Part shown: positions 20,415 through 54,595 of the stretch, in pieces | How positions within the stretch are numbered: the first letter of the stretch is position 1 | Layout of the letters: each line of letters begins with the position of its first letter | DNA from: Lobulomyces angularis | Taxonomy: Eukaryota; Chytridiomycota; Chytridiomycetes; Lobulomycetales; Lobulomycetaceae | Direction of reading: 5' to 3' | DNA: 54,595 bases | Assembly (NCBI GenBank): GCA_027604685.1 | Contig: JADHYX010000124.1 | Span: 1 to 54,595, forward strand | Translations under genes and position numbers: made by a program | Notes under the pieces: generated by a model | Database searches by the model: none | Told to the model about the DNA's origin: nothing | What the model saw: only the letters and a program-made list of their open reading frames with translations

Positions 20415-20878
20415 GCTCTTTTGTTAATTCTTTATTTATAGTTGTATGATAAATTTGTAGACCTGTACAGTTATAAAAAACATTGTTTTATTCTTTTGTC
20501 GAAATTTGCTTTTAATGATCGAAAAGAAATACAGATGTCGGCATCTATATTTTTTCAACTATCGTAATGGTGCTTGCTGTGCTCATAACAAGATCGATGA
20601 TTGAGTTTTGAATTCTCCACCTCGACAGTTCTTTCTTCCATTCTTTTCTTTGTTACTCCCTACTCTTTTAATATAATAATTACTCTCAACGATAGCAATA
20701 CAACATATTAAGCAAAAAAAAGTATTTAGAATAATGGTTCTGAATTGTTTTAATGCACAAAAATTTTTTTATAGTTTTTTGATTCTAACTCTTTTTTGAG
20801 ACTGAAGATAGCCTTCTACAAAAAAAAAATTTGACATTGTGACACGAGGATTTACGTGCTTACACACCATTTGGATAA
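20415..20878. other. gene-poor stretch 3' of MED21 with possible element terminus
   Basis: After the MED21 stop there is no convincing gene until the Fanzor relic. A 29-base stretch at 20531-20559 resembles the terminal sequence of the two other Fanzor elements here (GATGTCGGCAT, then ATTTTTTCAAC). A 28-codon frame on the minus strand (20555-20641) contains CYEHSKHHYD but has no family I recognise. Confidence 0.35.
20531..20559 (+). repeat. possible right terminal sequence of Fanzor element A
   Basis: ACAGATGTCGGCATCTATAT followed by TTTTTTCAAC can be aligned, with small gaps, to TTAGTGCTGGGGCATTAT-TTTTTGGAAC at 54267. The match is approximate and the distance to the hairpin (about 320 bp) is much longer than in copies B and C, so this is tentative. 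Confidence 0.3.
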
Positions 20879-20894
20879 AGTAGCGAAAACTACT
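20879..20894 (-). ncRNA. 3' stem-loop of Fanzor element A (candidate omega-RNA part)
   Basis: On the + strand, AGTAG (20879-20883), loop CGAAAA and CTACT (20890-20894), followed by CAGGAA. The same loop, position and flank occur at 42313 and 54339, where the stem is AATAG/CTATT. The second base pair has changed from A-T to G-C on both sides, which is a compensatory substitution. It lies 3' of the Fanzor relic in the coding direction. The RNA role is inferred from the position of guide RNAs in TnpB/Fanzor systems. Confidence 0.5.
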
Positions 20895-21262
20895 CAGGAA
20901 GAGTCCTTTGAACATTCCTCCAAGGTTTAGGACTCTCTCTCCTCTTGGAAGTTTCCACCGTCTCTCCATCACACCCAGGACAAACTTTTGATGCCTTATA
21001 TTCATCCAACAGAACATCAAACCCATCCCTTCGAAACATATTCCTAAATTAGGTGATCATTATAATATTTTAATACCGAAATCCCTTCCCCTTGGTCATA
21101 ACCTGACCTTTTGGCGTATACTTACACGCTCGAATCCTAATCCCCCATGTTTACAGTCACTTGGCGACCACCTCCATAGCTCCCTTTGAACTTATTGATA
21201 AATTTCTCCTCTGATTTCTTGGTGTTGATGAAGATGCTGAATCGAAGTTTACGGAAGATTCT
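20895..21262 (-). pseudogene. Fanzor (TnpB-like nuclease) relic, copy A
   Basis: Decayed piece of a eukaryotic TnpB-family, RNA-guided nuclease. One open segment (21137-21262) reads RIFRKLRFSIFINTKKSEEK then FINKFKGSYGG and VTVNMGD, resembling the Fanzor block with K-x-x-x-x-x-N-x-Q-x-S-E followed by the hydrophobic-G-D-W strand of the RuvC core; here the W codon has become TAG. A second segment (20927-21036) reads FRRDGFDVLLDEYKASKVCP and GCDGETVETSKRRES. This is the (V/L)DE(F/Y)-x-(T/A)-S-x-x-C-x-x-C entry to the zinc ribbon. A frameshift then gives PKPWRNVQRTLPE, the usual R-P arm. The second zinc half and RuvC-III are missing, and stops and frameshifts separate the parts. It cannot make a working nuclease. 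It lies directly 3' of a transposase helix-turn-helix fragment. Confidence 0.75.
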
Positions 21263-21263
21263 T

Positions 21264-21575
21264 TCACCATAAAACAGAAACTGTTCGGTGTTTTATTTTG
21301 TTATTCAAATGGGTTGATGCATCTTCATTTGTAGCTGTTGGGTTAATGTTGAAAAAGTCAATTAATTCTTGTTTAGAATTTTGATCAAGAATCAATTTGC
21401 GACCGGTTTTCTTTAGTGGTTTAACACTTTTCGAACTATCCCATTGTTTTCTCCAGTTGTATAAAGTAGCTTGAGTAATTTTGTATCTGACGCATATAGA
21501 CTTGATTTGGTTCTCCTTTTCGAAAAGCATATAAATCACCCAACTTGAATTCTTCTGAATGATGCTTTTTGTTAC
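21264..21575 (-). pseudogene. IS630/Tc1-type transposase helix-turn-helix fragment
   Basis: Open frame with two successive DNA-binding units. The first has WVIYMLFEKENQIKSICVRY followed by KITQATLYNWRKQW. The second is the winged part, GRKLILDQNSKQELIDFF then INPTATNEDASTHLNN and KHRTVS. This order (first HTH, G-R-K/P linker, L-x-x-x-x-x-x-E-L, second HTH) is the N-terminal half of Tc1/mariner-IS630 DDE transposases. No DDE catalytic domain follows: the frame stops at 21264 and the Fanzor relic begins. This is a truncated transposase. Frame 21576-21830 is open by chance and overlaps the opposite-strand zinc-finger gene. Confidence 0.7.
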
Positions 21576-21686
21576 TTTGAAAATGAAATTCTTGAGGTAA
21601 AGAGTTGGACATTTAGGTGGCACAATTATCTTTGACGTCAAAATTATTTTAGCTGAAAGTTTAAAAAAAGATATTGCACAAGCACT

Positions 21687-22442
21687 ATGCAAGTGGAAAT
21701 TAATGAACAAAAAAGAAAACGAGTTGAATTTGAAATTGAAAATGAAGAAGTTGAAAAGGAAACATATCAAAAATACTTTAAAATTACCAATGAATCTGAT
21801 TTGGAAGTAAGGTACGCAACAATCATGCAACTATTATGACTATAAAATCAACACTTGTAATACTGTATTGACCACTTTTTTCAGATGTTTCGTTACAACA
21901 GAGTGCTCTTTTAAGCTGTTTGCCTCAGTGGAAGAACTGGAATTTCATAAACAAACTAAACATAATTTAAAGTGTGTGGAGTGCAATAAACATTTACACT
22001 CCAAAAATTTTCTGAATTTACACATCCAAGAACTTCATGATCCATTTTTTAAAATTCTAAAAGAAAATAAGCCGATGGTATTTAAATGAAATTCCTTTGT
22101 TTTAATTTGTTTATTCATTTAAATGGTTAATAGTACCAGTGCTTAATTGAGACTTGTGTCAGTAAAAAAAAAAATTTCAAGTCAATTTTTGAAAGAAATA
22201 AGCACATGGTTTCAAAACACGAATTACCGTATGAAAGCCAGGTGTATAGACTGCTGGGATATCCTAGAATTTCTGTGGACCAAAAAAAAAAAGTAGATAG
22301 TAAGATTGAAAAAGAACTGATTAATGAGAAAATTTTGGAAAGTAAAAAGTTACATGATCTTATATTGGGAATTAGTAATTTACAGTTACCTAAAGAAATT
22401 CATTTTGGAAAAAATGCGCAAAAGGGATTTGACAGAAAGTAA
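21687..22442 (+). CDS. ZNF511: ZNF511-like C2H2 zinc-finger protein
   Basis: Small nuclear-type zinc-finger protein of unknown molecular role in most species. Exon 1 (21687-) encodes MQVEINEQKRKRVEFEIENE. A GTACGC donor joins to RCFVTTECSFKLFASVEELE, then CVECNKHLHSKNFLNLHI and QELHDPFFKILKENKPM. The next exon (from 22132) continues YQCLIETCVSKKKNFKSIFE and RNKHMVSKHELP. Three fingers with C-x4-C, C-x2-C and C-x4-C spacing, and the central H-D-x-F-F-x-I-L block, match ZNF511 (human: EWHDSLFQIL, then MYQC). The lysine-rich C-terminal tail ends at 22442. Upstream, the first exon lies antisense to a frame that extends the transposase fragment, but the DNA-binding part of that fragment ends before it. 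Confidence 0.75.
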
Positions 22443-41773: not shown

Positions 41774-42244
41774 AGCAGGAGAGAAAAAGCTTTAAAGAAT
41801 ACAAAGTAAATGAAGATTTGATAAGATTGAATTTGAAGAGATAAATAAATAGAGTGATCCGTTAAATGGTGATGGTTCAAATCAATTTATGTTTAGTGTA
41901 ATATAAAAAGTGAAGTAAAGTAGGAATAAGTTATAGGAGATGTGTTTATGTGAAAATGTGAATCAATTTATAGGAAGGGGGACAGGCTTACAAATCCCAC
42001 TTCGAATTCCTGGTGAAATAATTTCTCCGTGTTTTAGTTTCAACATCAGATTGTTTAGGTTTTCACTACTATTATATCACTGTCCAAGTAGCTGTATTAG
42101 TTCTCTGAACTTTAATGCATGGTAACTCGTTGACCATAGTCTCACTGGTTTAATCAAAAAAAGAAAAATTTTATTATCATTTGTCATCAAAAATTTCATT
42201 ACTAATTGTTTTTTTTTTTTGTAATACCCAATGTGAAGATTAAG
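41774..42244. other. gene-free stretch between GCLM and Fanzor element B
   Basis: No exon-like frame stands out. A segment at 41980-42005 resembles a tRNA T-arm (ACTTCGAATTCC) but has no matching acceptor or anticodon arm. The rest is AT-rich. Confidence 0.45.
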
Positions 42245-42263
42245 TTAATGTTTGGGTAATATC

Positions 42264-42288
42264 TTTTTGAACATTGAATATTCAAAAA
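42264..42288 (-). ncRNA. second 3' stem-loop of Fanzor element B
   Basis: On the + strand TTTTTGAA (42264-42271), a nine-base loop CATTGAATA, and TTCAAAAA (42281-42288). The same stem in element C is TTTTTGGA/TCCAAAAA, so one pair is A-T here and G-C there, changed on both sides. It lies 25 bp from the first stem-loop, as in C. Confidence 0.45.
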
Positions 42289-42312
42289 AAACCAAACACC
42301 AATTAAAATTAC

Positions 42313-42328
42313 AATAGCGAAAACTATT
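42313..42328 (-). ncRNA. first 3' stem-loop of Fanzor element B (candidate omega-RNA part)
   Basis: On the + strand AATAG (42313-42317), loop CGAAAA and CTATT (42324-42328), followed by TAGGAAAAAAA. It sits about 35 bp after the degenerate Fanzor C-terminus in the coding direction. The loop, flank and spacing repeat in copy C, and the loop and flank in copy A. Confidence 0.5.
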
Positions 42329-42362
42329 TAGGAAAAAAACATATGGTTTATCTTACTAAATA

Positions 42363-43375
42363 AATAGGTCTAACTGGTACAATAAAGTACTTTCGTAAAC
42401 ATCTTGTTTTGTTAAAAGTTTATTATCATTTTCTAATTTTCTTCTAATAAATTCATAATGTTTAGTTTCATGTCTTCTTTGCATTTGAGTATCTCTAAGT
42501 TTCTCATCATTCCAACCTTTGTAAAAGTATATTTCATAAATTTTAAATAATTTGTTTTAGATGATTTACCCAAACAATATAATAAATCTCTTTTATTTGG
42601 ATCAATGTAAACATGATTTTCCTTTAAAATATTGTCTCGAAAATTTTCTGAAGGTAATTCTTTTTTTTTGGTTTACCATGTTTAGGTTGTTCTCTTTATT
42701 GGTTTGCATGGTTGTTGTATCGTCTGGTTTTTTTCTTTTTTTTTCTTTTCTATTCTTTTTTTATTGTTTGTTGTATTGTCTTCTAAGCAAAGTGAAACTC
42801 CATCGGTTTCAATTGAACCTGAAAAAACCATTCCATTTCTTGATTTAATTGGTTTCTTTTCAAATTAAATAATTTGTTCCAATCTCTTCCAAATTATCTT
42901 TTACATTTAGAGTTCCCATTGTTATTCACTACCTAATCCTAATACCACTTTTATTAAAATGTTAGTGTCGAATCGAATATGTCTTGGTATAGTTGAAGTA
43001 GTTAATGGAAGAACATTAAATTGTCTTAGTTGATGTTGTTGATACAATAAACCAAGTTTATAATATGGTTCAAATATTTAAAACAACTATGAACATCATA
43101 AGGAATAGAATTTTTTCAATTGCTTCAAGTAATATATTTCATAAAAGATTAACAATACTAAGCTCATATTCATTCAACTCATTGCTAACTGTAATGTTTT
43201 TCAAAATTATCTTTTGCACTAGCCTATTTCTTGCTTATAAAACTTTTATCCAATCTTTTTTTAGCATGTTTTCAGGTATTAATGATAATTGTTTTTGAAG
43301 AATCAAGTTTGAAATAAATGTTTTTAGTTTAGGAACAAAATGTTCTTAGATGTTGCCAGTATAATTTGTAAACAT
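42363..43375 (-). pseudogene. Fanzor relic, copy B, with RuvC-I and C-terminus
   Basis: Broken TnpB-family nuclease gene; frames change several times. Recognisable pieces in order: MFTNYTGNI-stop-EHFVPKLKTF (from 43375), like the Fanzor N-terminal helix with N-I-x-E-H-F. LGLLYQQHQLRQFNVLPLTT then STIPRHIRFDTNILIK (42922-43056), like the Fanzor core before RuvC-I. GSIETDGVSLCLE (about 42780-42815). ENHVYIDPNKRDLLYCLG (near 42600), the RuvC-I strand with its catalytic aspartate. WNDEKLRDTQMQRRHETKHY (about 42440-42510), like the Q-R-x-x-E-T block. LLTKQDVYESTLLYQLDLF then stop, aligned in DNA to the C-terminus of copy C. RuvC-II and the zinc ribbon are absent: an internal deletion fused the RuvC-I part to the tail. 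At least four frameshifts or stops make it non-functional. Confidence 0.75.
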
Positions 43376-43855
43376 TTTATTAGCTTAATACAAAGCGATT
43401 TGATCAAAGTACTTGAAATTTTCTAGTATGTAGCCAAATTCAGTTTTATATTTTTCAATATACTCCTTTAGTAACTCAAATTATAGAAGAAGTTCCGGTA
43501 CTGGTTTTTATTGTTTTTATTGAATGCTTCAAAACTTGTATAATCTTGTAAAAAAAATCAACATTAATCATACTCCATTGTTTTGGTTAGGGTAGTTTAA
43601 AACAAAATACTTAAAAAAGTGAGTTGTATGAACAGTTATTCGATTTGCAGTTTAAATAAAATTTTCATTTTCTCATATTGATTAGATGTTCCAATAAATA
43701 CATTGGTAAACTTGGTTTTATTACAGGAATGTGTTTTCATTTAGTACAATTTCAATAAAAAAAAGTTTATTTTTTCTTCTCCATTTATAGTTTTTTTTAA
43801 AAATTTTGCAATCATGAAAAAAATATTTTTGTACATTCAAATGATGCCCCATATA

Positions 43856-44031
43856 AAATTTTCACTTTTACAAATATATTCCAAAAAGAAATTATCAATA
43901 AAATTCTTTTATTGTAAATAAACTTATTCTTAATAATAAAAACTCAATCTCTATTACGTAACACTATTTGGATCCCATGTGAATCTGGTTTCCCCATCCA
44001 ACTCAACTAAAAAACAATTATAGGTTAATAA
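43856..44031. other. intergenic, with possible last exon of the aldo-keto reductase
   Basis: AT-rich. On the minus strand at about 43965-44005 the sequence can be read LDGETRFTWDPNSVT, which looks like the C-terminal end of an aldo-keto reductase, but it does not join in phase to the upstream exon. Confidence 0.4.
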
Positions 44032-45123
44032 TTACTTAGTTTTCTTAAATTGAATAATACTGCTTGACAAAAGCGCCATTTCTTCTTTGGTAAATTTAAA
44101 AGTTAAGCAGTTGAAGTTTTCTAAAACTCTTTCTTTACTGCTCATTTTTGGAATTACTGGTATTCCCTGCTGTATTGAATATCTTAACAATACTTGGGCA
44201 ATAGTCATATTTTTTGTTTTTGCAATATATTCTACTGTAGGTATAGAAATAGATCCATTCAGTAACTTCCCTTGACCTAAAGTTGAATAACCCTGGACAG
44301 TAATCCCTTTAGATAATGTCAATTGTAAGTTCAACGACAAATTTCACAGATATGTAGAGAGAAAATACCTCTTTTTTTACAGAACTCAATTAATGACAAT
44401 TGTGGGAGTTGTATATGTACTTCAATCTGGTTTACTGTCGGTACACTTCTAGGGAATGCATCGATGAGTTTCGTTAAATGATTTTCATTAAAGTTTGAAA
44501 CTCCAATAAACTTTATTAAACCTTCATCCTTTGCTTTAATCATTGCTTGATATGTCTCCTTCCTTAATTCGGCATTTCTCAAATTCGTTACTGCCTTTCG
44601 TTTGTCAATAAATTTCTTTTAAGCAATAAATATAAAGTTACAATATTTGCTGCACCAGGCCAGTGAATTAAAACTAAATTCAAATACTTTAAGTTCAAAT
44701 TTTTTAATGAATTTTGTATGGATTTGTAGGCTTTTTCATATCCTTGAGATTTCGGAGAAATTTTGGTTGTTATCCACATTTCTTCACGAGAACACAAGCC
44801 AGTGTTAAAAACCTCATTTAAAATGACACCAATTTCTTCTTCATTTCTGTAGACTTCCGCCTTTTATGATTAAAACTGCTAAATTCGTAAAAATCCATTT
44901 TACTTACTGTGTCAATTAATCGATATCCAGTTTTAACTCCTTCAAAATGTCAGATTTATTATTTTTACAGTTTAGAAAATTACCTTCTAGTATTGCAGTT
45001 CTTAAATTTTCACCTTTTAGTTGAAAAGTGCCTATGCCGATAGCAGGTAAATTGATTGAGCCTAATTCATTAATAAAAAGGTATGTTATTTTAAAAACCA
45101 ACAACTGGTACAAAAACTCCCAT
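44032..45123 (-). CDS. aldo-keto reductase
   Basis: NADPH-dependent oxidoreductase of the (beta/alpha)8 fold; the substrate cannot be told from sequence. Four exons: MGVFVPVV then GSINLPAIGIGTFQLKGENL; GVKTGYRLIDT; AEVYRNEEEIGVILNEVF; and the later TIM-barrel part. The catalytic tetrad is visible: Asp in RLIDTAEVY, Tyr in the same motif, Lys in WITTKISP and His in LVLIHWPG. FIGVSNFNENHLTKLIDAFP and PTVNQIEVHIQLPQ are typical of the family, and IPVIPKMSSKERVLENFNCL corresponds to the NADPH-binding region. The frame stops at 44032. A downstream segment resembling the family's final W-D-P motif (43965-44005) is out of phase, so the last intron or the stop is uncertain. It is divergent from the TRAIP-like gene across 79 bp. 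Confidence 0.85.
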
Positions 45124-45202
45124 AATTTCTATTATTTTTAAACCCTACTTCAAAAAAAATCAGAGTGGAGCAGACTAGAATTGTCAACGTTCTAGCAATT
45201 TC

Positions 45203-46724
45203 ATGGCACATGATTTAAGATATGTCTCTGGTGTTTTAATCTAATTTTGTTGTTTTTAACTAATCTTCGTATATCTGTCAGTTTCTAAACAGGAGTGTAC
45301 TATCTGTTTAAATTTATTTGGTGAACCTTCAAGTTACAATGAAACGTCAAAAACGCTTGCAGTTTTAAATAATTGTAACAAATAATTTTTTAAGGAAGTT
45401 TTATTAACCTTCTTTCAGGTGCTCACATTTTTCATGTAGAATGTTTAAGAAAACTTTCAGCTTTTTCATGTCGTAAGTTAAAATTTAATGAAAATTAAAA
45501 TTTGTTATGTTCAGCAAATTGCAGAAAAAGTTTCAAAAAGGGTAACGGGTATACAGTACTTAAGTTTCTGGATTTTAGTGTTGTAGATTTCAAAGGTGTT
45601 AATTCTCACATTTTTCGAAGTGATCTGGGAAATGATGCAAATAACGAATCTAATATAAATTTAAGAGAGAAAACTTCCGATCTAGAACGCATTAATTTCA
45701 AAAATTTGCAAAAACAATACTTTGTATGTGCATAAAACAATACTAACTTTGATTATTAAATAAATTTCCATTTAGCAAGAAAAAAAACTTAATGAATCTA
45801 AAATTTTTAAAATTGAAAATGAAAGCAAAAACTTAGAAAATTCTTTGTTGGCATCCCAAAATGAAATAAAGTTATTAAAAAGACAAAGCAAATTGTTAGA
45901 AAAAACTTTGCAAACAAATTTAGCAATTATGGATGATACCAAGAACAAAAATTTAGAAGAATACCAAAAAATATTAAATTTGTTAGAAACCGAAAGATTA
46001 ATTAGTAAATCGTTGCGCATAGATTTAGAAAAATCCACTAAATTGCATTTAATTGCGGAAAATAATTTAAGAGATTCTCTTAATCAAGAAAAAAGAAATA
46101 ATTTAAATTTAATGATTGAACTAAACGCTTACAAATCTAATATAAAGTCGTTAAAAGAGGAACAAATAAAATTGCAAAACAAAGAAAGAGAGTATTTATT
46201 GAAGAGTAATTATTGCTCACGAGAAAATTTTGCCTCTAGATTGGAGATTTGTCAGAGTCAATGTTCCCCTACTAGTGAATCTGGTTTAAAGTGAAAATTT
46301 CTATTAAAATATTAATATAATTTTACAGCCGAGCGATACAATAAAGAAAAATTTTTGGAGTTAAAAAAGGAAAATCTAAATCTAAAAAATAAGTTTGAAA
46401 TAATGCAGAAGAGTTACGAAAAAGTTACAAGTAACACATTTAATGCAAACTGTGAAATTCCAGGTGGTAATATTCCGAGACAAAATTTGACTGCTCCACT
46501 GGAAAGTGAGGATTTCTTACTGGTTCCAGGGAGCTTTAAATCAAATAAACCTGGGATTATATCTAGGATCAAATCTAAAAAGGTAGGACAGTCAGTTAAA
46601 TTCTTAAAATACAATTTTTTTTTGGTTGTAGGAATTGAGCAGAAAAACTCCATATTTAAAATCCACCCCTCTACCCTTGAAAACTTTTTTTACTAATACA
46701 GAACGAAAGTTTAAAAGGTCGTAA
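45203..46724 (+). CDS. TRAIP: TRAIP-like RING E3 ubiquitin ligase
   Basis: RING-finger plus coiled-coil protein. TRAIP ubiquitinates the replicative helicase in mitosis and at crosslinks. A 21-bp first exon (MAHDLRY) joins to ECTICLNLFGEPSSYN. The zinc ligands continue C-x2-C, then LNNC-A-H-I-F-H-V-E-C, and FSCPNCRK; the A-H-I-F-H pair gives the RING-H2 centre. After the RING, TVLKFLDFS resembles TRAIP's K-L-F-F segment, and a coiled coil of about 170 residues follows (KLLKRQSKLLEKTLQTNLAI, EEYQKILNLLETERLISKSL, NYCSRENF). The C-terminus has SKKELSRKTPYLKSTPLPLK and RKFKRS, basic with S/T-P sites. The stop at 46722 overlaps a GTAAGC donor, so a further exon is possible. TRAIP is the best fit; other RING-coiled-coil ligases cannot be excluded. 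Confidence 0.7.
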
Positions 46725-47014
46725 GCAAGTTTCAAATTTACCGAAATTACATTAATCATATTTTCAGAGTTTTTTTTTTGTTTATTTATTGCATTTTTCC
46801 CGTACATTCTTTATTTAATTGCATACTTAAGTGTCAACAAGCGATTCTTCGGATTGTAATAAATTATATAGCTTCTCAACATATCCATAGTAATTAAATT
46901 CCTACAACAAAAGTTTGAATATTTTGCTTGAATTCAAAATTTATATTTTTTAAAAAATAAAAGTAATGAAAGTTTGTAATTTATGGTCAAGACACATTTG
47001 TTTAATTTTTTGGA
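46725..47014. other. intergenic region TRAIP / TRM3
   Basis: About 290 bp, AT-rich. If the TRAIP gene has an extra 3' exon it would start after the AG at 46767-46768, where a frame stays open for about 140 bp. Otherwise nothing is visible. Confidence 0.4.
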
Positions 47015-50000
47015 ATGGCAATCCTTGCAGAAACCACTGATGAAGCACCATCGGATTTAGTAATAGTATCCCTAATTAATTTTTTATCTATTGATGATTT
47101 TGAAACTACCCTTGATAACAGTTTTACATTCAAAAACTTGGATATGATTAAAACCATGTTTAAATGCCTTTCAGTTAATTCAAAGTTTCAGTCAGTGGTA
47201 ATAGGAAAATCTTTTATCTTTTATTGTGTAAACCATCTGAATTTAAGTCTTAACTACTCTCTTAAATTTTTTAGAAAGAGGAAAGTTTTAAAAAACTGGA
47301 TACTTTTGCATCTTCACAAATTGACTGCATGACTGATGTCAGTGACAACGATGATTGGTTAGCAACAGGCAATGCAACAGGTTTGAAAAATAAATTACCA
47401 AAAATCAATTTATTGCATAAAACTAGTGCTAAAATTTACTGTGGAATTAATTATACTCTTTCCAGACAAATTTGGAGTAAAATTTTTAAAATCACGTTTT
47501 AATACACTGTCTAAATATGATGCTGGGGTAAATATAAGCTCAACATTAAGAATTTTGTATGAGCTAATTTTAATGTTGAGTAATGATCAAAATCAGCTTC
47601 CTGAAGCCTACAATGAAATTAAACACTTTCTCAAACCAATTTTTAATGATCTATGCAAACTGTTAAAGAGTTCAATTTATTCCGTTAGAAAAATAGTTAT
47701 ACTTATTCTTCCTCTTTTTATTGAACATATAGTAAAATTTGACACTGAACTTAAAAAAAAATGTTGTAATGAAGTTTGGATTGTCTTGAAATACATTTCC
47801 GAAGATCAGCAACTTCATAGCATAAAAACGGAAATTCCCATGTTTTTTACGCGATTGATTGATGTGTTTCTTGGAGTTCGATATACAAAACAGGCACCTA
47901 CCAATATTTCAAAAAAAAAAAACAAAAAGAAAGTGAAAAAGCGAGAAATAGCTGAAAAATTTAAAACTGAAGAACAACAATTGAATTTGCAAAATGAAGA
48001 AGAAGCATCTATAATAGATTTCAATTATAGTTTTACTGGGGAAATTTTACTTGATGTTAGATTTGAACCATATTACTTTGAGGTAATTCAAGACGGTATT
48101 AGAGGAACAGACCCATTAGCTTACAAATACGCTGTGTTTTTATTGAAAAAAATTGTCGACTTCACTTTAAAATATGGAAAAATATCATCTCTGTCTTGGA
48201 CTAAGTAAGAAAAGATGAAATAGTTTGCTCATAAATGTTTATTCTTAAGATATTTTTCTTGGAAAGAGAATTCAGCAGTTGATTCATGGAAAGAATTTTT
48301 TGTGCTATTAGAAATCATAAGGGAAGCGCCTATACATATAGTTGAACCTGCGTTAAAAAAATTGTCTCCATTAATGTCACCAGGTTCAACTATACATTCA
48401 TCGTGGATAATTCTCGTCTTAATTCGCGCATTTTCTTCTCCAATATTGGCTGTTCGAAAAAAAAGCTTGGAATTTTTCCTCTCATATAAAGGAGAAGTTT
48501 CCTTTGTTAAGGACAACAGCTTCTTAAAAATAATTTTTGTTCATTTAGACCAACCGTTTTTATATTATTTGGAACGAAACACTGGTTTTGTGAGCCCCTT
48601 TGGTGAATTAGTGCGGTCATTCATTAAAATTCTTTTGAGTGCGGACAATTCCACTGAAGAGGATAGAATCGAATATTTAAAATGCATAATGAAGCAAAAC
48701 TTCGATTTCCAAATTGGAAAATTATTTATATATGAAGGAGTACTTGATTCTGAAGAAATAAAATGTCTTAATAGTGAAGATGTTCAGAACTTGTTTGTCT
48801 TTACAGAAGAATATCGTGGTGATTCAATTTGGAACAATACTAAAACTAAAATTTGGTTTCAGTATCTAGCTTTAAATTTAATAATTAAGTTTTCTGACAC
48901 TGGTTTCATTGACTTCAAAACACTTCTGCGGTAAAATAATAATAAAACCTGAATTACAAAAAAAAAATTATTGTAGATGCTTATCAACTTTCTGCAATGA
49001 AATTTTTTTAAAAGAAAATTCGGAGGAAAATTTAATACTAAAGAATTGGATACGTACAGGTTTTGCTGAAAAAACTGAAGATGGCATAGAGGTTTTAAAA
49101 CGAAAATTAAGTAATTTAATTTGTGATTATCTTTTAAATGGTATCATTTTTCTATTTTTCAAATTTGACGTTTTTATTAATGAATAGTAGAAGTTGCTGA
49201 AAATCCTAGAACTTTGGTAACAGCTTACATATTGCTGTACAGCTCTTTTGAAATGGAAGACGAAGTTATCAAATGCGTCTTAGCCACTTTGCGGAAGTGC
49301 ACATCCCATTACTCGTATATGCAAAAAGAGACAAAGCAACGTACAGTGCTTATATTAACCCAGTTTCTTGAGATACTCCCAACTAATAGAATCAATAATT
49401 TTATGGCTTTATTCAAAGATATGATTCAAAGTCTTTCTTCCTTTCTAATAGATGAAATCATAGAGGAAAGCAGCTCTAGAGTTTTGGGTACCTATATTTT
49501 CGATTATTTTTTGTCTAATATTTGTTTATGAACCTTTAGACGTAACTCTAACGAATACTTATATTTCGTTATTAAAGTCTTTTTTGATGCAATCTGACAT
49601 CAATTGTCAAGTAGCGCAAAAAATAGTTTTAAATTTGAAACTTAGGTCGCTTCCGGTATTGAAAAGGGATTGGTCTAAAAACACCGACACTATTGGTAAA
49701 ACTAGATGAAATTAAGACAGCCAAAATTTACTTTTTATTTGAATTTAGAGAAGCAGCTGGCATTTTATGGTTCTTTCTACCTCTTAGCTTTAGCATTTGA
49801 GCTAGCAAACTTCAAAAAAATGGATTTGGATTATCTAAATAAAAATTTAATTCAGGATGAAAGTTTTGAATTTTTGTTACAAAAAATTCAATTAGTTAAA
49901 GTTTTCGGCTTTGTAGAAAGTGGGCACTTCACATGGAATGACATTCAATCTTTTTTTACCGTAGCACAGTTCACTAGTCTTCACTCCATATACAGCATTA

Positions 50001-52573
50001 ATTCTTTAATGGAAAATTATAGAAAAGTATTTCAGTTTGCCCTAGACAACTTATTAGTGAGTGTGGATGCCACTGCACCTAAAATTTTAGAGTTGTTATC
50101 CATTGTTGCTAAAGCTGTTATTACCAATGATGGCGAAAATGTTTTTTCAGTATTTTCTCCTGCTGGTTAACAATATCTTAATTAATGCTATTTAATTTTT
50201 TGTTTAGTTATTTACATTTTATCGTTATTACAGGAAAATTGGGTAAATGTAAAAATTTTCAATAATATATATAAGTATTATGTGGATTTTTGTTTTCAAG
50301 AGTTTTTATTTGAAGTTTTACCAGCAAAGGATGACGAAAATCCAATAGTAAAGGTATTTTTTTGATTTTTTTTTTTGGATTTTTAATTATTATTTTCAAT
50401 TTAGTCTTTTGAAATTATAAAAAATTGGTCAGAATTCCGACCTCACCTAATGATCATTTTAGCCAAAAAAATTTTAAATCACTGGGATTCTCCCGAAAAA
50501 AGAATCAAAAACAAACTTAGTTCATATAAGAACATATTTGGGGATTTTCTACTTTTTGGAAATGTTAACGATTTAAAAATGCAAGATTACTTAAATCTTA
50601 AGCTAACTGGCCCCATGCAAACGTTCTTATCTGATGAAGGTATCGTGACAATGGAGGAAATGAATGAACTTGCTAGCACCGAATCATGGAATTTTGCTCA
50701 AAAAGATTACACTGTTCGGATCCGTGCTAACGTAATTTTACTTCAGTTACATAAAAGTGAATGCGAGTTGGGTTATGAACTATTATTATTTTTGTTCCAA
50801 ATTCACCACAAAAAAACCTATTTTGGGAATGAAAAAAGCATTGAACATCGAAAATTGGTAATTTTTATTAATAACATTTAATTGAAATCATTGTCGAAAG
50901 GTGAGACTTTGGAATTCCATTCATGTTGTACTTGATTTTGTGTCTTCAGAAGAGAGAGGTTTCCATATTGCAGAACTAATTTTGCAGTCTATTAAATTAG
51001 AAACAATTCAGTCCATTCGTTTCTACTGCGAGTGGGCGTTGATGCGTATCTGTATAAAATACTACTCTTGTTGCTCATTATTATGGAAGTAAGATATTAA
51101 TCTAGTAATTGTTTAATAAAAATTTGATTAGAAACTTAAGCGATTACACTAGTAAAGCTAATTTTACAGCTTCCCTATTGTCAACATCTATCCACATTGG
51201 TCACTGGTTAGAAGGAAAATTTCAGTTGGAGTACTATGAACGCTATGTTCCAGCTCTCTTACCGTGGCTTTCAAGTATAATAGATATTTTAATATTTTTA
51301 ATTAAACTTGTAAGGTAATAATTTCGTAACGAGATCTTTTTCTCAGTTTGCTCTCAAACTCGCGTTGACATACTGTGATAAGCATGAAAACCTAAAATCT
51401 GTTGTGAAAAATATGAATTTTTTGCATGATACCCTAGCATATATTGAAAGTGGTGGTTGCAATAAATTTATAGTAAAATGCGAAGAAAATTATTTTCTTT
51501 CTCCAGACACTTTTGAACCATTGAAACATGTAAACTGTGAATTTATATTTTCAATGTCAATGAAGGTATTTGGAATTTTAAGCAGCGAAAGAATACCCTC
51601 AATTTGCTTCAAAAAGTTAACTGAAAATTGTTTTGTTAACATACCACTTGAACATCCAGAAAATTGGAAAGTAAAATCTATTTCTTCATCGTAAGTAATA
51701 GAATTACGAGTAATTAAGAATTTTTGGCAGTAGCGAAAGGCAGACCACTGACACTGAGGATATTACCAATACAGCTCAATCGCAACAGCCAGTGCAACAA
51801 AAAATCGTTCCATGGGAAGCCTTAATGAAAGCTGAAGTAGATCTCTCAATGGAGAGGCATGACAGGAAATTTAAAAAAAGAAATCAAATTATTATTGTAG
51901 CCTCATTACTAGAAAAAATCCCGAATCTTGGCGGACTCTGTAGAACGGCTGAGATTTTTAACGCTGAAAATCTTGTAACAAAGTCTTCTTTCTGTGTGCA
52001 TTATTAATATTTTATTTAGGTTGTAAGTAATTTATCAATTAGAGATGACCCAAGATTTTTAAATACTTCTGTAACTGCTGAAAAGTGGCAACCTATGTCA
52101 GAAGTAATAATAAAAATTTTTGAGTTCCTTTTAACTATGTGTAGGTTAAAGAAGCGGACTTAGGCATATACCTCTTAAAGAAGAAGGCAGAAGGTAAGTT
52201 TTAATATATAGCTGTGCACTCAGTATTTAATTCGTATAGGTTACTCGCTGTGTGGTTTAGAGCAGGTCACAAACAGCATATCTTTGGAAAAGTTTAATTT
52301 TCCTGAAAAGATTTGCCTAATATTGGGAAAAGAAAAGGAAGGGTAAAATTTCAGCAATAAATAATTTTCTAATTTGTTAAAATTTTTTTCTTTTTTCAGA
52401 ATCCCTGCAACTATCCTTCCACTTTGTGATTTTTTACTGCAAATTCCACAATTTGGTATATACTTGTATTAATTGCGTTAATTTAATTTGATTTTTTAGG
52501 TGTGATTCGATCTTTAAATGTTCATGTGAGTGCTTCATTGGTGATTTGGCAATATGTTAAAAGTTTATTATAA
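47015..52573 (+). CDS. TRM3: tRNA 2'-O-ribose methyltransferase, TARBP1/Trm3 type
   Basis: SPOUT-family enzyme that methylates guanosine-18 ribose in the D-loop of tRNAs. The N-terminal ~1,200 residues are alpha-helical HEAT/ARM-like repeats, read across about 20 short-intron exons (FIHSSWIILVLIRAFSSPIL, ILVLKKILEYILNH-like helices, TVDVTAPKIL). The C-terminal SPOUT domain carries the three SpoU motifs: NLGGLCRTAEIFNAENLV (motif 1), LILGKEKEGIPATILPLCDF (motif 2) and LQIPQFGVIRSLNVHVSASL (motif 3, with the S-L-N-V-x-V-S-A-S knot). A lysine-rich linker occurs at 47920-47960. Length of about 1,500 residues agrees with yeast Trm3 and human TARBP1. The ATG at 47015 opens MAILAETTDEAPSD. Some middle exon joins are approximate. 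Confidence 0.9.
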
Positions 52574-52775
52574 TACATAAATTTTATTAAACGGAACAAA
52601 AGTTTAAAAAAATATAGATTAATTTTAAATGTCTGTTAGCCAAAATGTGAAGAGATTAATTTAATCTTTAAATAACGAAGAACAAAATGTTTAGAAAATA
52701 TATTAATTATTTCATAAAAAAATAAGAAAAAAGAAGATTTTCCAAATTGTATAAGTAATCGTAGTCACAAGTGTT

Positions 52776-53259
52776 TCAAATTTTTTTAATGTACTTTTCA
52801 ATTTCTGGTTCTTCAATAAGAAAATGTTAAAATTATTAGTTAAAATTTTTTAATACCTGCCGAAAATCCGTTAACTCTCTCTGCAAAAAATCTTCTATCC
52901 TCCTTCGTACAATAATCCCAATTTTCTGCTTCATAAATTAAACCATCTTTAAATGTGTATTGACCCTATAATCATATCATATTAGAATGCAATCTACTTT
53001 AAACTTTCACCTCTTGGGCAATTCCGTTAATCCATTCAGCTTCATATTGTCCACCAGTTTTAAAGTGAATTATGCCTTTTCCATGAAACTTTCCATCTTT
53101 AAACTCTCCAACATAGATGTTTCCAGATGGAAATGTATATTTACCTTTCCCTTCAATTCTACATTAAAAAATATCAATATGATAAAAAAATAAATGCCAT
53201 ATTTGCTTGTACCGTTCATTTTTTTGCTCAGCCAGAAATGGACTACCATAAAATGCCAT
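52776..53259 (-). CDS. MORN5: MORN5 homologue
   Basis: MORN-repeat protein found with motile cilia and sperm flagella. The first exon gives MAFYGSPFLAEQKNER. Then come repeated MORN units: GKGKYTFPSGNIYVGEFKDG, KFHGKGIIHFKTGGQYEAEW and INGIAQEGQYTFKDGLIYEA, followed by the MORN5-specific tail WDYCTKEDRRFFAERVNGFS and EPEIEKYIKKI. The Y-C-x-x-x-D-R-R-F block after the repeats distinguishes MORN5 from other MORN proteins. Four exons. The stop TGA is at 52776-52778 and the start at 53257-53259. About 125 residues, somewhat shorter than human MORN5 (161). Confidence 0.85.
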
Positions 53260-53640
53260 TTGTATTATTTAAAGCTTAAATAAAAAGTTTTTTTCAGCAA
53301 CCAATCACGCGCGTACTGCAGCCAAATTTCAAGACATACATGCATTAAGACTTAATCATCCTTCTATGTTTGTTGAGTTGAAAAGAAAACTTTATTTCTT
53401 TAAATTACTAATTTGCATGTTGCAACTTGGTACTCCGTTTTCGTGTTTTTTTGCATATTTTTTTCTTAAAGAAAATTTTAGAAGGATTGAAATGAACTAC
53501 TCACCAACAGAATAAATTGGAAAAATTTGAGATTGAATTATTTTTTGTTATAAATAGAGGTTAATTCAGTTTAAAAACTAACAAAATCATAAAATTTATT
53601 AAGAAACTTTGTAAACTTTCCAAAAAAAAAAAAAATTTAA
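53260..53640. other. divergent intergenic region MORN5 / small HSP
   Basis: About 380 bp between divergent starts. AT-rich with T and A runs directly before the heat-shock gene. I could not find a clean heat-shock element (inverted GAA units spaced by two bases); TTCTTAAAGAAA at about 53464 has the wrong spacing. Confidence 0.45.
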
Positions 53641-54090
53641 ATGCCATTAATCCTTCACTCTGTTGCTTCTGACAATTTGTTAACTGACATTTTAGAAAAT
53701 ATTTTAGAGGTTGAACAGCAGCAACCAGAGACTAAGACTTCTTTAAAAAGGCCAGTAAATAGTATCCCACAGTTGAATGTCAGTGAAAATGAAGCAGAAT
53801 ACTACGTCCAAGTTGATTTACCTGGAGTATCTAAGGATCAAATCGATTTGAGTATGAATGCAGGCAACATTTTGATTCTTAAAGGTGAAAGAAAAATTAC
53901 CTTGGAGCAGAAAGATACCGACAAATACCACATAAGCGAAAGAACATTTGGGAAATTTGAAAGAAGATTAAGGCTCCCTAACTGCATAAACTTGGACGAT
54001 GTTGACGCTTCATTAGAAAATGGTGTTTTAACTTTAAGATATGCCAAGAAAAGAAAGATTGACGAAAAAAAGAAAATTTTGATAAAATAA
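53641..54090 (+). CDS. small heat-shock protein (Hsp20/alpha-crystallin)
   Basis: ATP-independent chaperone that holds unfolding proteins. It is one uninterrupted frame of 149 residues. The alpha-crystallin domain is clear: EYYVQVDLPGVSKDQIDLSM, ILILKGERKI, ISERTFGKFERRLRLPNCIN and VDASLENGVLTLRYAKKRKI. The G-x-L dimer/oligomer motif appears as NGVLTL, and F-x-R-x-x-x-L-P is typical of class I sHSPs. The N-terminal arm (MPLILHSVASDNLLTDILEN) is hydrophobic/acidic, and the C-terminal extension is basic (IDEKKKILIK), with ILI as the likely I-x-I docking motif. Intact. Confidence 0.95.
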   Translation: MPLILHSVASDNLLTDILENILEVEQQQPETKTSLKRPVNSIPQLNVSENEAEYYVQVDLPGVSKDQIDLSMNAGNILILKGERKITLEQKDTDKYHISERTFGKFERRLRLPNCINLDDVDASLENGVLTLRYAKKRKIDEKKKILIK

Positions 54091-54284
54091 TTTCCTTCAA
54101 ATTAGTAGCATATTTTTACACTTCAATTTACATAGTAAAACTTTTTTTAATTCAATTATTTTTTTTCTTTCAAATATAATATTTTCTTTGTATTTTAAAT
54201 AAAAAAGTTTTTTTTTTTTTGTTACCTTCCTCATTATACTATTATATTATACATTAATAGTGATCATTAGTGCTGGGGCATTAT

Positions 54285-54311
54285 TTTTTGGAACATTAAA
54301 ATATCCAAAAA
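54285..54311 (-). ncRNA. second 3' stem-loop of Fanzor element C
   Basis: On the + strand TTTTTGGA (54285-54292) pairs with TCCAAAAA (54304-54311). The stem extends outward as ATTATT/AATAAT with one bulged T, about 13 pairs in all. Copy B has the same stem with an A-T instead of a G-C pair. Confidence 0.45.
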
Positions 54312-54338
54312 AATAATACAACAAACACCAACTGAAAA

Positions 54339-54354
54339 AATAGCGAAAACTATT
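54339..54354 (-). ncRNA. first 3' stem-loop of Fanzor element C (candidate omega-RNA part)
   Basis: On the + strand AATAG (54339-54343), loop CGAAAA and CTATT (54350-54354), extended by one more A-T pair. It lies about 70 bp after the Fanzor stop codon and about 27 bp before the second stem-loop. Confidence 0.5.
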
Positions 54355-54398
54355 TAGGAAAAAAATTACAGTCTAATCTATCTACTTAAATAAACTGG

Positions 54399-54475
54399 TC
54401 TAACTTTATGCAACAAAGTTGTACTACAACTTTGTTGCATAAAACCCTAGTCTAACTCCATGCAACAAAGTTGTT
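54399..54475. repeat. 18-bp palindrome and direct duplication in the Fanzor 3' end
   Basis: TTATGCAACAAAGTTGTA (54406-54423) is followed after one base by its exact reverse complement (54425-54442). A third copy of the core, TGCAACAAAGTTGT, lies at 54461-54474, preceded by the same TCTAACT as the first. The arrangement suggests a local duplication with inversion. Copy B lacks it and reads straight through (TTGTACCAGTTAGACCTA), so it was inserted or created in copy C. Confidence 0.85.
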
Positions 54476-54594
54476 TCTACAACATCTTTTAGATTTAATG
54501 TTGCTACATCATCCCTGTTCCAAAGTCTCTGAACTAATTTTCCATTCATCATTTGCTTACATATTTCGTTTTTGCAACGTAGCAATCCATGAAT
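54424..54594 (-). CDS. Fanzor nuclease C-terminal end, copy C (partial)
   Basis: Open frame of 56 codons entering from the window edge and ending with TAG at 54424-54426. It reads IHGLLRCKNEICKQMMNGKL then VQRLWNRDDVATLNLKDVVE and TTLLHGVRLGFYATKL. HGLLRC-x4-C is the second half of the zinc ribbon, and W-N-R-D-x-x-(A/V)-x-x-N is the RuvC-III motif with the catalytic aspartate, as in TnpB and Fanzor. No stop or frameshift occurs up to the edge, so this copy may be complete outside the window. The original tail was probably GVRPVYLSR, judging by the sequence after the palindrome and by copy B; the duplication has given it a new end. Only the C-terminus can be judged here. Confidence 0.8.
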   Translation of the reverse strand: MHGLLRCKNEICKQMMNGKLVQRLWNRDDVATLNLKDVVETTLLHGVRLGFYATKL

Positions 54595-54595
54595 T

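Follow-up and report, generated by a model that had tools for sequence, protein, structure and literature searches.

Fanzor1 remnants and the stem-loops next to them

The window, i.e., the whole stretch of Lobulomyces angularis DNA analyzed (54,595 nucleotides; contig C124 of an assembly with 533 contigs and 20.76 Mb), contains the remnants of three Fanzor genes, each followed by a stem-loop that is considered here as part of a putative guide-RNA scaffold (omega-RNA or fRNA) of Fanzor1 transposons. The G+C content of the window is 28.8% and poly-A/T runs are many. The three remnants, located by tblastn with Fanzor pieces of the same genome, are all on the minus strand (Table 1). The matches of copies 1 and 2 are spread over several frames, and copy 2 lacks about 560–590 bp between 42391 and its 3′ region, as estimated from other copies, in which query positions 1–30 sit that much further upstream. 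Copy 1 belongs to a separate subfamily with relatives of its own, which keep the 3′ terminus that copy 1 has lost. With their genes broken or cut, and copy 1 without the 3′ end of the RNA, the three window copies look dead.

The associated protein is Fanzor1, the best solved relatives for two fragments being SpuFz1 (8gkh, E 6.8e-34) and PpFz1 (9cf0, 3e-24). After L. angularis itself, the closest named species to its Fanzor proteins was Clydaea vesicula (88% identity); a single search of an open-licence library gave no publication dealing with Fanzor in either Lobulomyces or Clydaea. The stretches read showed no intact Fanzor gene; the longest Fanzor-like open frame in them has 333 amino acids (L058), the length of SpuFz1 being 638 residues (PMC10432273). 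The numbers of Fanzor copies are lower bounds, as several lie at contig ends (for example, position 54595 of the window, C273, C415 and C212), where assembly breaks are suspected. A search of the window against Rfam, with E up to 0.5, gave no match to curated RNA families, and the NCBIfam search of three proteins gave a single weak, unrelated match for two of them.

Table 1. Coordinates of the features of the three Fanzor copies of the window, and of the best Cas12f1-like TNB matches elsewhere in the genome. SL1 and SL2, first and second stem-loops; TIR, terminal inverted repeat.
Feature	Position	Strand	Basis or remark
Copy 1, what is left of SL2	20836..20869	-	3′ terminus missing; fold z -2.43
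Copy 1, leader and SL1	20878..20900	-	outer triplets GAG/CUU; another subfamily
Copy 1, C-terminal half of Fanzor1	20914..21289	-	broken across frames
Putative helix-turn-helix part of Tc1/mariner-type transposase	21267..21581	-	HTH_Tnp_1 E 0.001, below curated cut-off
Candidate 5′ end of the copy 1 element, resembling the TIR (TAGTGCTTGTGCAATATC...)	21659..21688	-	loose match
Copy 2, flank of 15 nt, candidate guide	42231..42245	-	aligned element end; length modeled on PMC10432273
Copy 2, SL2, internal arm UGGUGUUUGG with element 3′ terminus CCCAAACAUUA	42246..42301	-	fold and alignment
Copy 2, UUCC(U) leader and SL1 of predicted omega-RNA	42312..42334	-	fold; outermost pair broken
Copy 2, Fanzor1 remnant	42359..43065	-	tblastn; out of frame in places
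Copy 3, SL2 including element terminus CCCCAGCACUA	54268..54330	-	fold and alignment
Copy 3, UUCC(U) leader and SL1	54338..54360	-	fold
Copy 3, Fanzor1 C-terminus (GLLRCKN...)	54442..54594	-	cut by contig end
Best Cas12f1-like TNB matches (L041-L045)	C78:34796, C123:50757, C247:31646, C189:3585, C107:42652		

Sequence and pairing of SL1

The initial annotation described, after each Fanzor copy, a plus-strand stem-loop with an invariant CGAAAA loop, the stem being AATAG/CTATT in two copies and AGTAG/CTACT in the third. These sequences were all recovered: AATAG-CGAAAA-CTATT occupies 42313–42328 and 54339–54354, and AGTAG-CGAAAA-CTACT occupies 20879–20894, YAGGAA following in each case. The plus-strand motif was thus correctly described, but both the gene and the RNA are read on the minus strand, where SL1 takes the form UUCCU-nnnUAG-UUUUCG-CUAnnn in the three copies. 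The pair just outside the 5-bp stem originally noted is broken in copy 2 (AAA/TTG) and is G-U in copy 1. The regions 42246–42339 (copy 2) and 54268–54364 (copy 3) fold with z values of -4.24 and -5.20, respectively.

Inside the window, CGAAAACTA occurs three times, a number reached by 1 of 100 shuffles, so that the repetition is only mildly improbable there by itself. In the whole genome, the pattern TCCTNNNTAGTTTTCGCTA (up to one mismatch, the three outer pairs left free) was found at 88 places, as compared to none for the reversed pattern used as control. The outer triplets, read at 68 of these places, gave 60 distinct sequences. In 40 of them all the outer pairs are Watson-Crick (AAA/TTT in 25, GAG/CTC in 13, GAA/TTC in one and AGC/GCT in one), and the other 20 carry at least one wobble or mismatch. 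In 11 of these 20, a single side deviates from AAA/TTT or GAG/CTC, which is the pattern that decay should produce. Thus, the switches seen as compensatory in the initial annotation are real as differences between subfamilies, marked by AAA/UUU and GAG/CUC, although the stem then noted is identical in copies 2 and 3. That the switches predate the decay agrees with these counts, and the conclusion that the scaffold was shaped by selection before the copies decayed stands.

The pairing was also evaluated in another sample. With the 3′ region of copy 2 as the query, at least 40 places of the genome were matched (40 of the 76 candidates scored), and the alignment of 3′ regions was made with 43 rows, the last one being copy 1. 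For the pairing statistics, 36 rows chosen from several families were compared to slid registers and to 500 shuffles. The stem cells were paired in 95.2%, versus 23–67% in the slid registers, and no shuffle reached the observed percentage; the cells changed on both sides were 23, versus 7.2 in the shuffles, none of which reached 23. SL1 consists of six pairs plus U-G in 32 of the 36 rows. Among the 24 distinct triplet combinations of the 60 sequences, Watson-Crick pairs made up 43 of 72, the mean of the shuffles being 27.6 (p 1.1e-4). When 21 representatives were folded singly, SL1 was complete in 14 and partial in two.

Several results weigh against these arguments for SL1. The triplet counts cover 68 of the 88 places, and SL1 was missing from the single folds of five of the 21 representatives (L076, L080, L055, L021b and L079). 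The number of pairs with both-sided change (three of seven) was reached by 103 of the 500 shuffles, and the number of pair types (seven) by 158 of them. For the 38 family A copies aligned with MAFFT, RNAalifold predicted no pairs, which is attributed to indels in the T runs. A tree-based null rejected independence for the true SL1 pairs, but the mis-registered controls 5a-3c and 5c-3a exceeded this null like the true pairs did, since AAA and GAG are unchanged when reversed. The registers are told apart by just a few combinations (GAA/TTC, AGC/GCT and GGT/GCC), so that the exact register rests on the copies which carry them and on the folding.

These data bear on the view that SL1 is a chance pairing in AT-rich sequence, multiplied by a repeat family, with differences due to random drift. 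The low G+C content and the poly-A/T runs of the window agree with this view, as do the shuffle that equalled the three occurrences of CGAAAACTA and the mis-registered pairs that did equally well in the tree null. It is nevertheless hardly credible in the face of the 88 places versus none for the control, of matched triplets such as GAG/CTC, GAA/TTC and AGC/GCT, and of the failure of all 500 shuffles to attain the observed percentage of pairing.

A further family, with UUUUCA as the loop and other outer pairs, was observed in L055:1821-1938 and L021:4006-4053; SL1 was absent from the predicted fold of both copies. Seven stretches with the SL1 pattern on viral contigs were taken as chance occurrences, since none of the seven loci had a tblastn match to the Fanzor proteins used as queries; their outer triplets were fully complementary in one (L114) and paired through wobbles in one more (L113).

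Element borders and the composition of SL2

The initial annotation placed the stem-loops 3′ of the gene and next to the element end. The region does lie 3′ of what remains of the Fanzor1 genes, and its end coincides with the element border, which in the 43 aligned rows reads ...CCCAA[AG]CACTA and then gives way to unrelated flanks. The 3′ end is kept in 38 rows, the five end-less ones being L014, L016, L025, L026 and copy 1, and TA is terminal in 34 of the 38. In L023, L024, L029, L030 and L064, the same 30-bp terminal repeat, inverted (TAGTG...), was also found upstream with equal orientation, thus delimiting elements of ~1.3, 0.54, ~2.4, ~2.2 and ~1.0 kb, respectively. The ends and the TA fit the consideration of these elements as Fanzor1 transposons with Tc1/mariner-type ends. 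AT preceded TA at four of the five candidate 5′ ends, which was too thin a basis to claim a target-adjacent motif.

Concerning the second stem-loop, also proposed from the outset, TTTTTGAA...TTCAAAAA (42264) and TTTTTTGGA...TCCAAAAAA (54285) do show the A-T to G-C difference, but they occur in this form in two of the three window copies and belong, as the distal portion, to a longer hairpin named SL2, the base of which is formed by an internal arm and the 3′ terminus of the element. SL2 is closed by UGGUGUUUG against CAAACACUA, the latter being the last bases of the element with TA included. The terminus-paired fold of the 3′ region was obtained in the five family A copies tested (z -4.24, -5.20, -3.40, -5.58 and -6.61). 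Among the 21 representatives folded singly, the SL2 base included the terminus in 11 and took an alternative form in two. In another family, represented by L081, the arm is UGGUACUUAA and the terminus UUUAAGUACUA. A subfamily formed by L009, L013, L018, L021, L022 and L027 has a longer SL2 loop (like TCACCTAGCGGTTAATG) with the same arms.

The termini of four further copies were predicted in writing from their arms before the ends were read, and three of them were fetched. The three belonged to the predicted GUAC class: one was exact (AGUACCA for the predicted AGUAC[UC]A) and two had one mismatch (GAGUACUA for GAGUUC[UC]A and AUGUACUA for UUGUAC[UC]A). Together with L079 and L081, they are members of one broad group and, therefore, do not count as independent events. 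When arms and ends were exchanged among 26 of the copies, with G-U allowed, GUAC arms paired worse with CAC ends (0.65) than with their own (0.87).

On the other side of the balance, the SL2 base was missing in eight of the 21 single folds, and the arms of the CAC group paired with GUAC ends (0.92) as well as with their own (0.91), so that the arm-end coupling is visible in one direction only. Moreover, one SL2 arm lies inside the TIR and is thus conserved for a DNA reason too. As the 3′ arm is TIR sequence, SL2 alone is no proof of RNA, and the second stem-loop gives weaker support than initially stated.

It is on this point that one should consider the possibility of DNA-level transposon ends only, i.e., palindromes close to the termini that bind the transposase or may form cruciforms and would be kept for transposition and not for an RNA. 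Besides the location of the SL2 arm in the TIR, the 5′ end of L024 has its own TTTTTGAA...TTTCAAAAA pairing. The last 11 nt have an interior complement of at least 8 (G-U allowed) in 32 of 38 3′ ends, yet this also occurs in one of five 5′ ends, and a complement of 9 of 11 was reached at two of four 5′ ends with another interior interval, so that the asymmetry between 3′ and 5′ ends is only suggestive. Against the DNA-level explanation, SL1 is ~65–100 nt inside the element, no SL1-like motif was found within 150 nt of any of the five candidate 5′ ends (L023, L024, L029, L030 and L064), and SL1 matches nucleotides of the SpuFz1 omega-RNA that contact the protein (PMC10432273). All considered, this explanation seems improbable.

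Comparison with known Fanzor and TnpB systems

In the SpuFz1 omega-RNA, according to PMC10432273, the leader is formed by U5, C6 and C7, the C6-G20 pair is part of stem-loop 1, stem 2 includes U35 and G37, and the nucleotides A72 and A75, at its end, are in contact with the protein. The comparison was made with the nucleotides named in that paper (14 positions from 5 to 37), at an offset of 3 chosen by us. With this offset, the leader UCC and the loop G fall on U5, C6, C7 and G20, and the arm UGGU of family B falls on 35–38. Ten of the 14 nucleotides matched in L079, L081 and L090, and nine in L073 and L086; at least nine matches occurred at 0.05% of the window positions, considering both strands. 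Less favorable are the lower scores of family A (eight in L002 and seven in L032) and of L067 (seven), as at least seven matches, with the offset being our choice, occurred at 1.7% of the window positions. The omega/fRNA identity advanced initially is supported by these matches, which amount to at least 50% of the nucleotides named, together with the common layout and the maintenance of SL1 pairing across families. A loop closed by U-G was set aside as the principal structure, because in SpuFz1 this G, equally spaced, is the partner of the leader C.

Other similarities to the Spizellomyces element Spu-1 and its RNA are, in the same source, the chytrid host, the element size (~2.1 kb, to compare with the ~2.4 and ~2.2 kb of L029 and L030, respectively), the inverted repeats of ~30 bp, the RNA located between the stop codon and the 3′ end, with two stems and a linker, the final A of the scaffold (which in Lobulomyces is the A of TA), the 14-nt spacing between leader UCC and loop G, equal to that of C6 and G20, and the existence of short elements lacking a complete Fz gene (538 bp in L024). 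Unlike SpuFz1, the Lobulomyces genome has several scaffold sequence families, and 4–7 of the 14 named nucleotides differ depending on the copy.

The Fanzor1 reRNAs of PMC10711439 are likewise predicted to include the TIR and the target duplication inside the scaffold, but with three stems instead of the two of Lobulomyces. The Tc/mariner Fanzor1 elements of PMC3627910 share TA duplications, mariner-type ends and, possibly, the coexistence of Fanzor-only and transposase-bearing elements; that 2013 paper proposes a methyltransferase role and not an RNA guide. The first stem-loop of a Fanzor1 omega-RNA has seven base pairs and contacts RuvC/TNB (PMC11423790), and the six pairs plus U-G of SL1 agree with this number. 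The TnpB omega-RNA of IS200/IS605 resembles the Lobulomyces region in its 3′ position, in the scaffold defined by the border and in the flank acting as guide (partly from PMC10711439), and the pseudoknot common in TnpB is lacking in the SpuFz1 RNA (PMC10432273).

These parallels serve also to evaluate the structure as a 3′ untranslated region of the Fanzor mRNA, i.e., a stability or processing signal rather than a guide scaffold. In the copies that keep the frame, the structure starts ~10–30 nt after the Fanzor stop codon, in agreement with this proposal. Its ending at the border and its taking in the presumed target duplication, like the published Fanzor1 scaffolds (PMC10711439, PMC10432273), make the proposal very improbable.

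Other observations on Fanzor loci and putative transposase remains

PF07282 was matched at 25 places of the genome, with SL1 ~205–245 bp downstream on the same strand at 10 of them. None of the five best, over-cut-off Cas12f1-like TNB matches (L041-L045) had SL1 in the stretches searched. Judged by eye, their finger motifs presumably correspond to TnpB/Fanzor2 rather than to Fanzor1; RuvC-I and WNRD are names used for Fanzor motifs. L047:2022 carries a sequence loosely resembling SL1 (up to three edits), on the strand of a weak TNB match and ~400 bp downstream from it.

The helix-turn-helix stretch of the window is directly upstream of Fanzor copy 1, on the same strand. It has 27 matches in the genome, and those on C276, C280, C288 and C89 are near DDE_3 matches. 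In 21267-21830 (minus strand), the helix-turn-helix reading frame joins the copy 1 remnant, possibly as an internally deleted mariner with transposase and Fanzor. The element L024:3595-4132, of 538 bp, has both ends, the omega-RNA region and little gene, and its size is near that of the ‘ghost’ Spu-1 (~550 nt).

Interpretation and meaning

As a whole, the stem-loops are, with high probability, the 3′ omega-RNA (fRNA) scaffold of Tc1/mariner-type Fanzor1 transposons. Their positions and copy number, the element border, the cross-family pairing and the Fanzor1 homology are observed; from these we infer transcription, processing, use as a guide and cleavage. SL1, with its UUCC leader, stem and UUUUCG loop, would be the part held by the RuvC/TNB surface of Fanzor. 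SL2 would be closed by the internal arm and the terminus of the element itself plus the presumed TA target duplication, and it is proposed that this closure places the end of the scaffold at the border, so that the adjacent genomic sequence would serve as the guide, which in Fanzor1 omega-RNAs has about 11–21 nt. In active elements, the ribonucleoprotein would cut the matching empty site, so favoring retention of the element.

From the copies compared, one may venture, rather doubtfully, that the Fanzor1 families read share a single SL1 recognition code (UUCC leader, inner pairs UAG/CUA and UUUUCG loop), their outer pairs and terminal stems diverging in matched fashion, and that the copies with broken genes could constitute a pool of trans-acting guide RNAs for the surviving Fanzor1, each with the guide of its own insertion site. 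The idea of a pool derives from the functional ghost omega-RNAs of Spizellomyces.

This kind of RNA was already known from the related chytrid Spizellomyces. The set of copies compared provides a natural alignment of a Fanzor1 guide scaffold across several families within one genome, in which the nearly fixed positions (UUCC, UAG/CUA and UUUUCG) are separated from those that mainly need to pair. Less firmly, the data suggest that the terminal stem follows the changed terminus, that is, that the transposon ends and the guide scaffold may evolve together.

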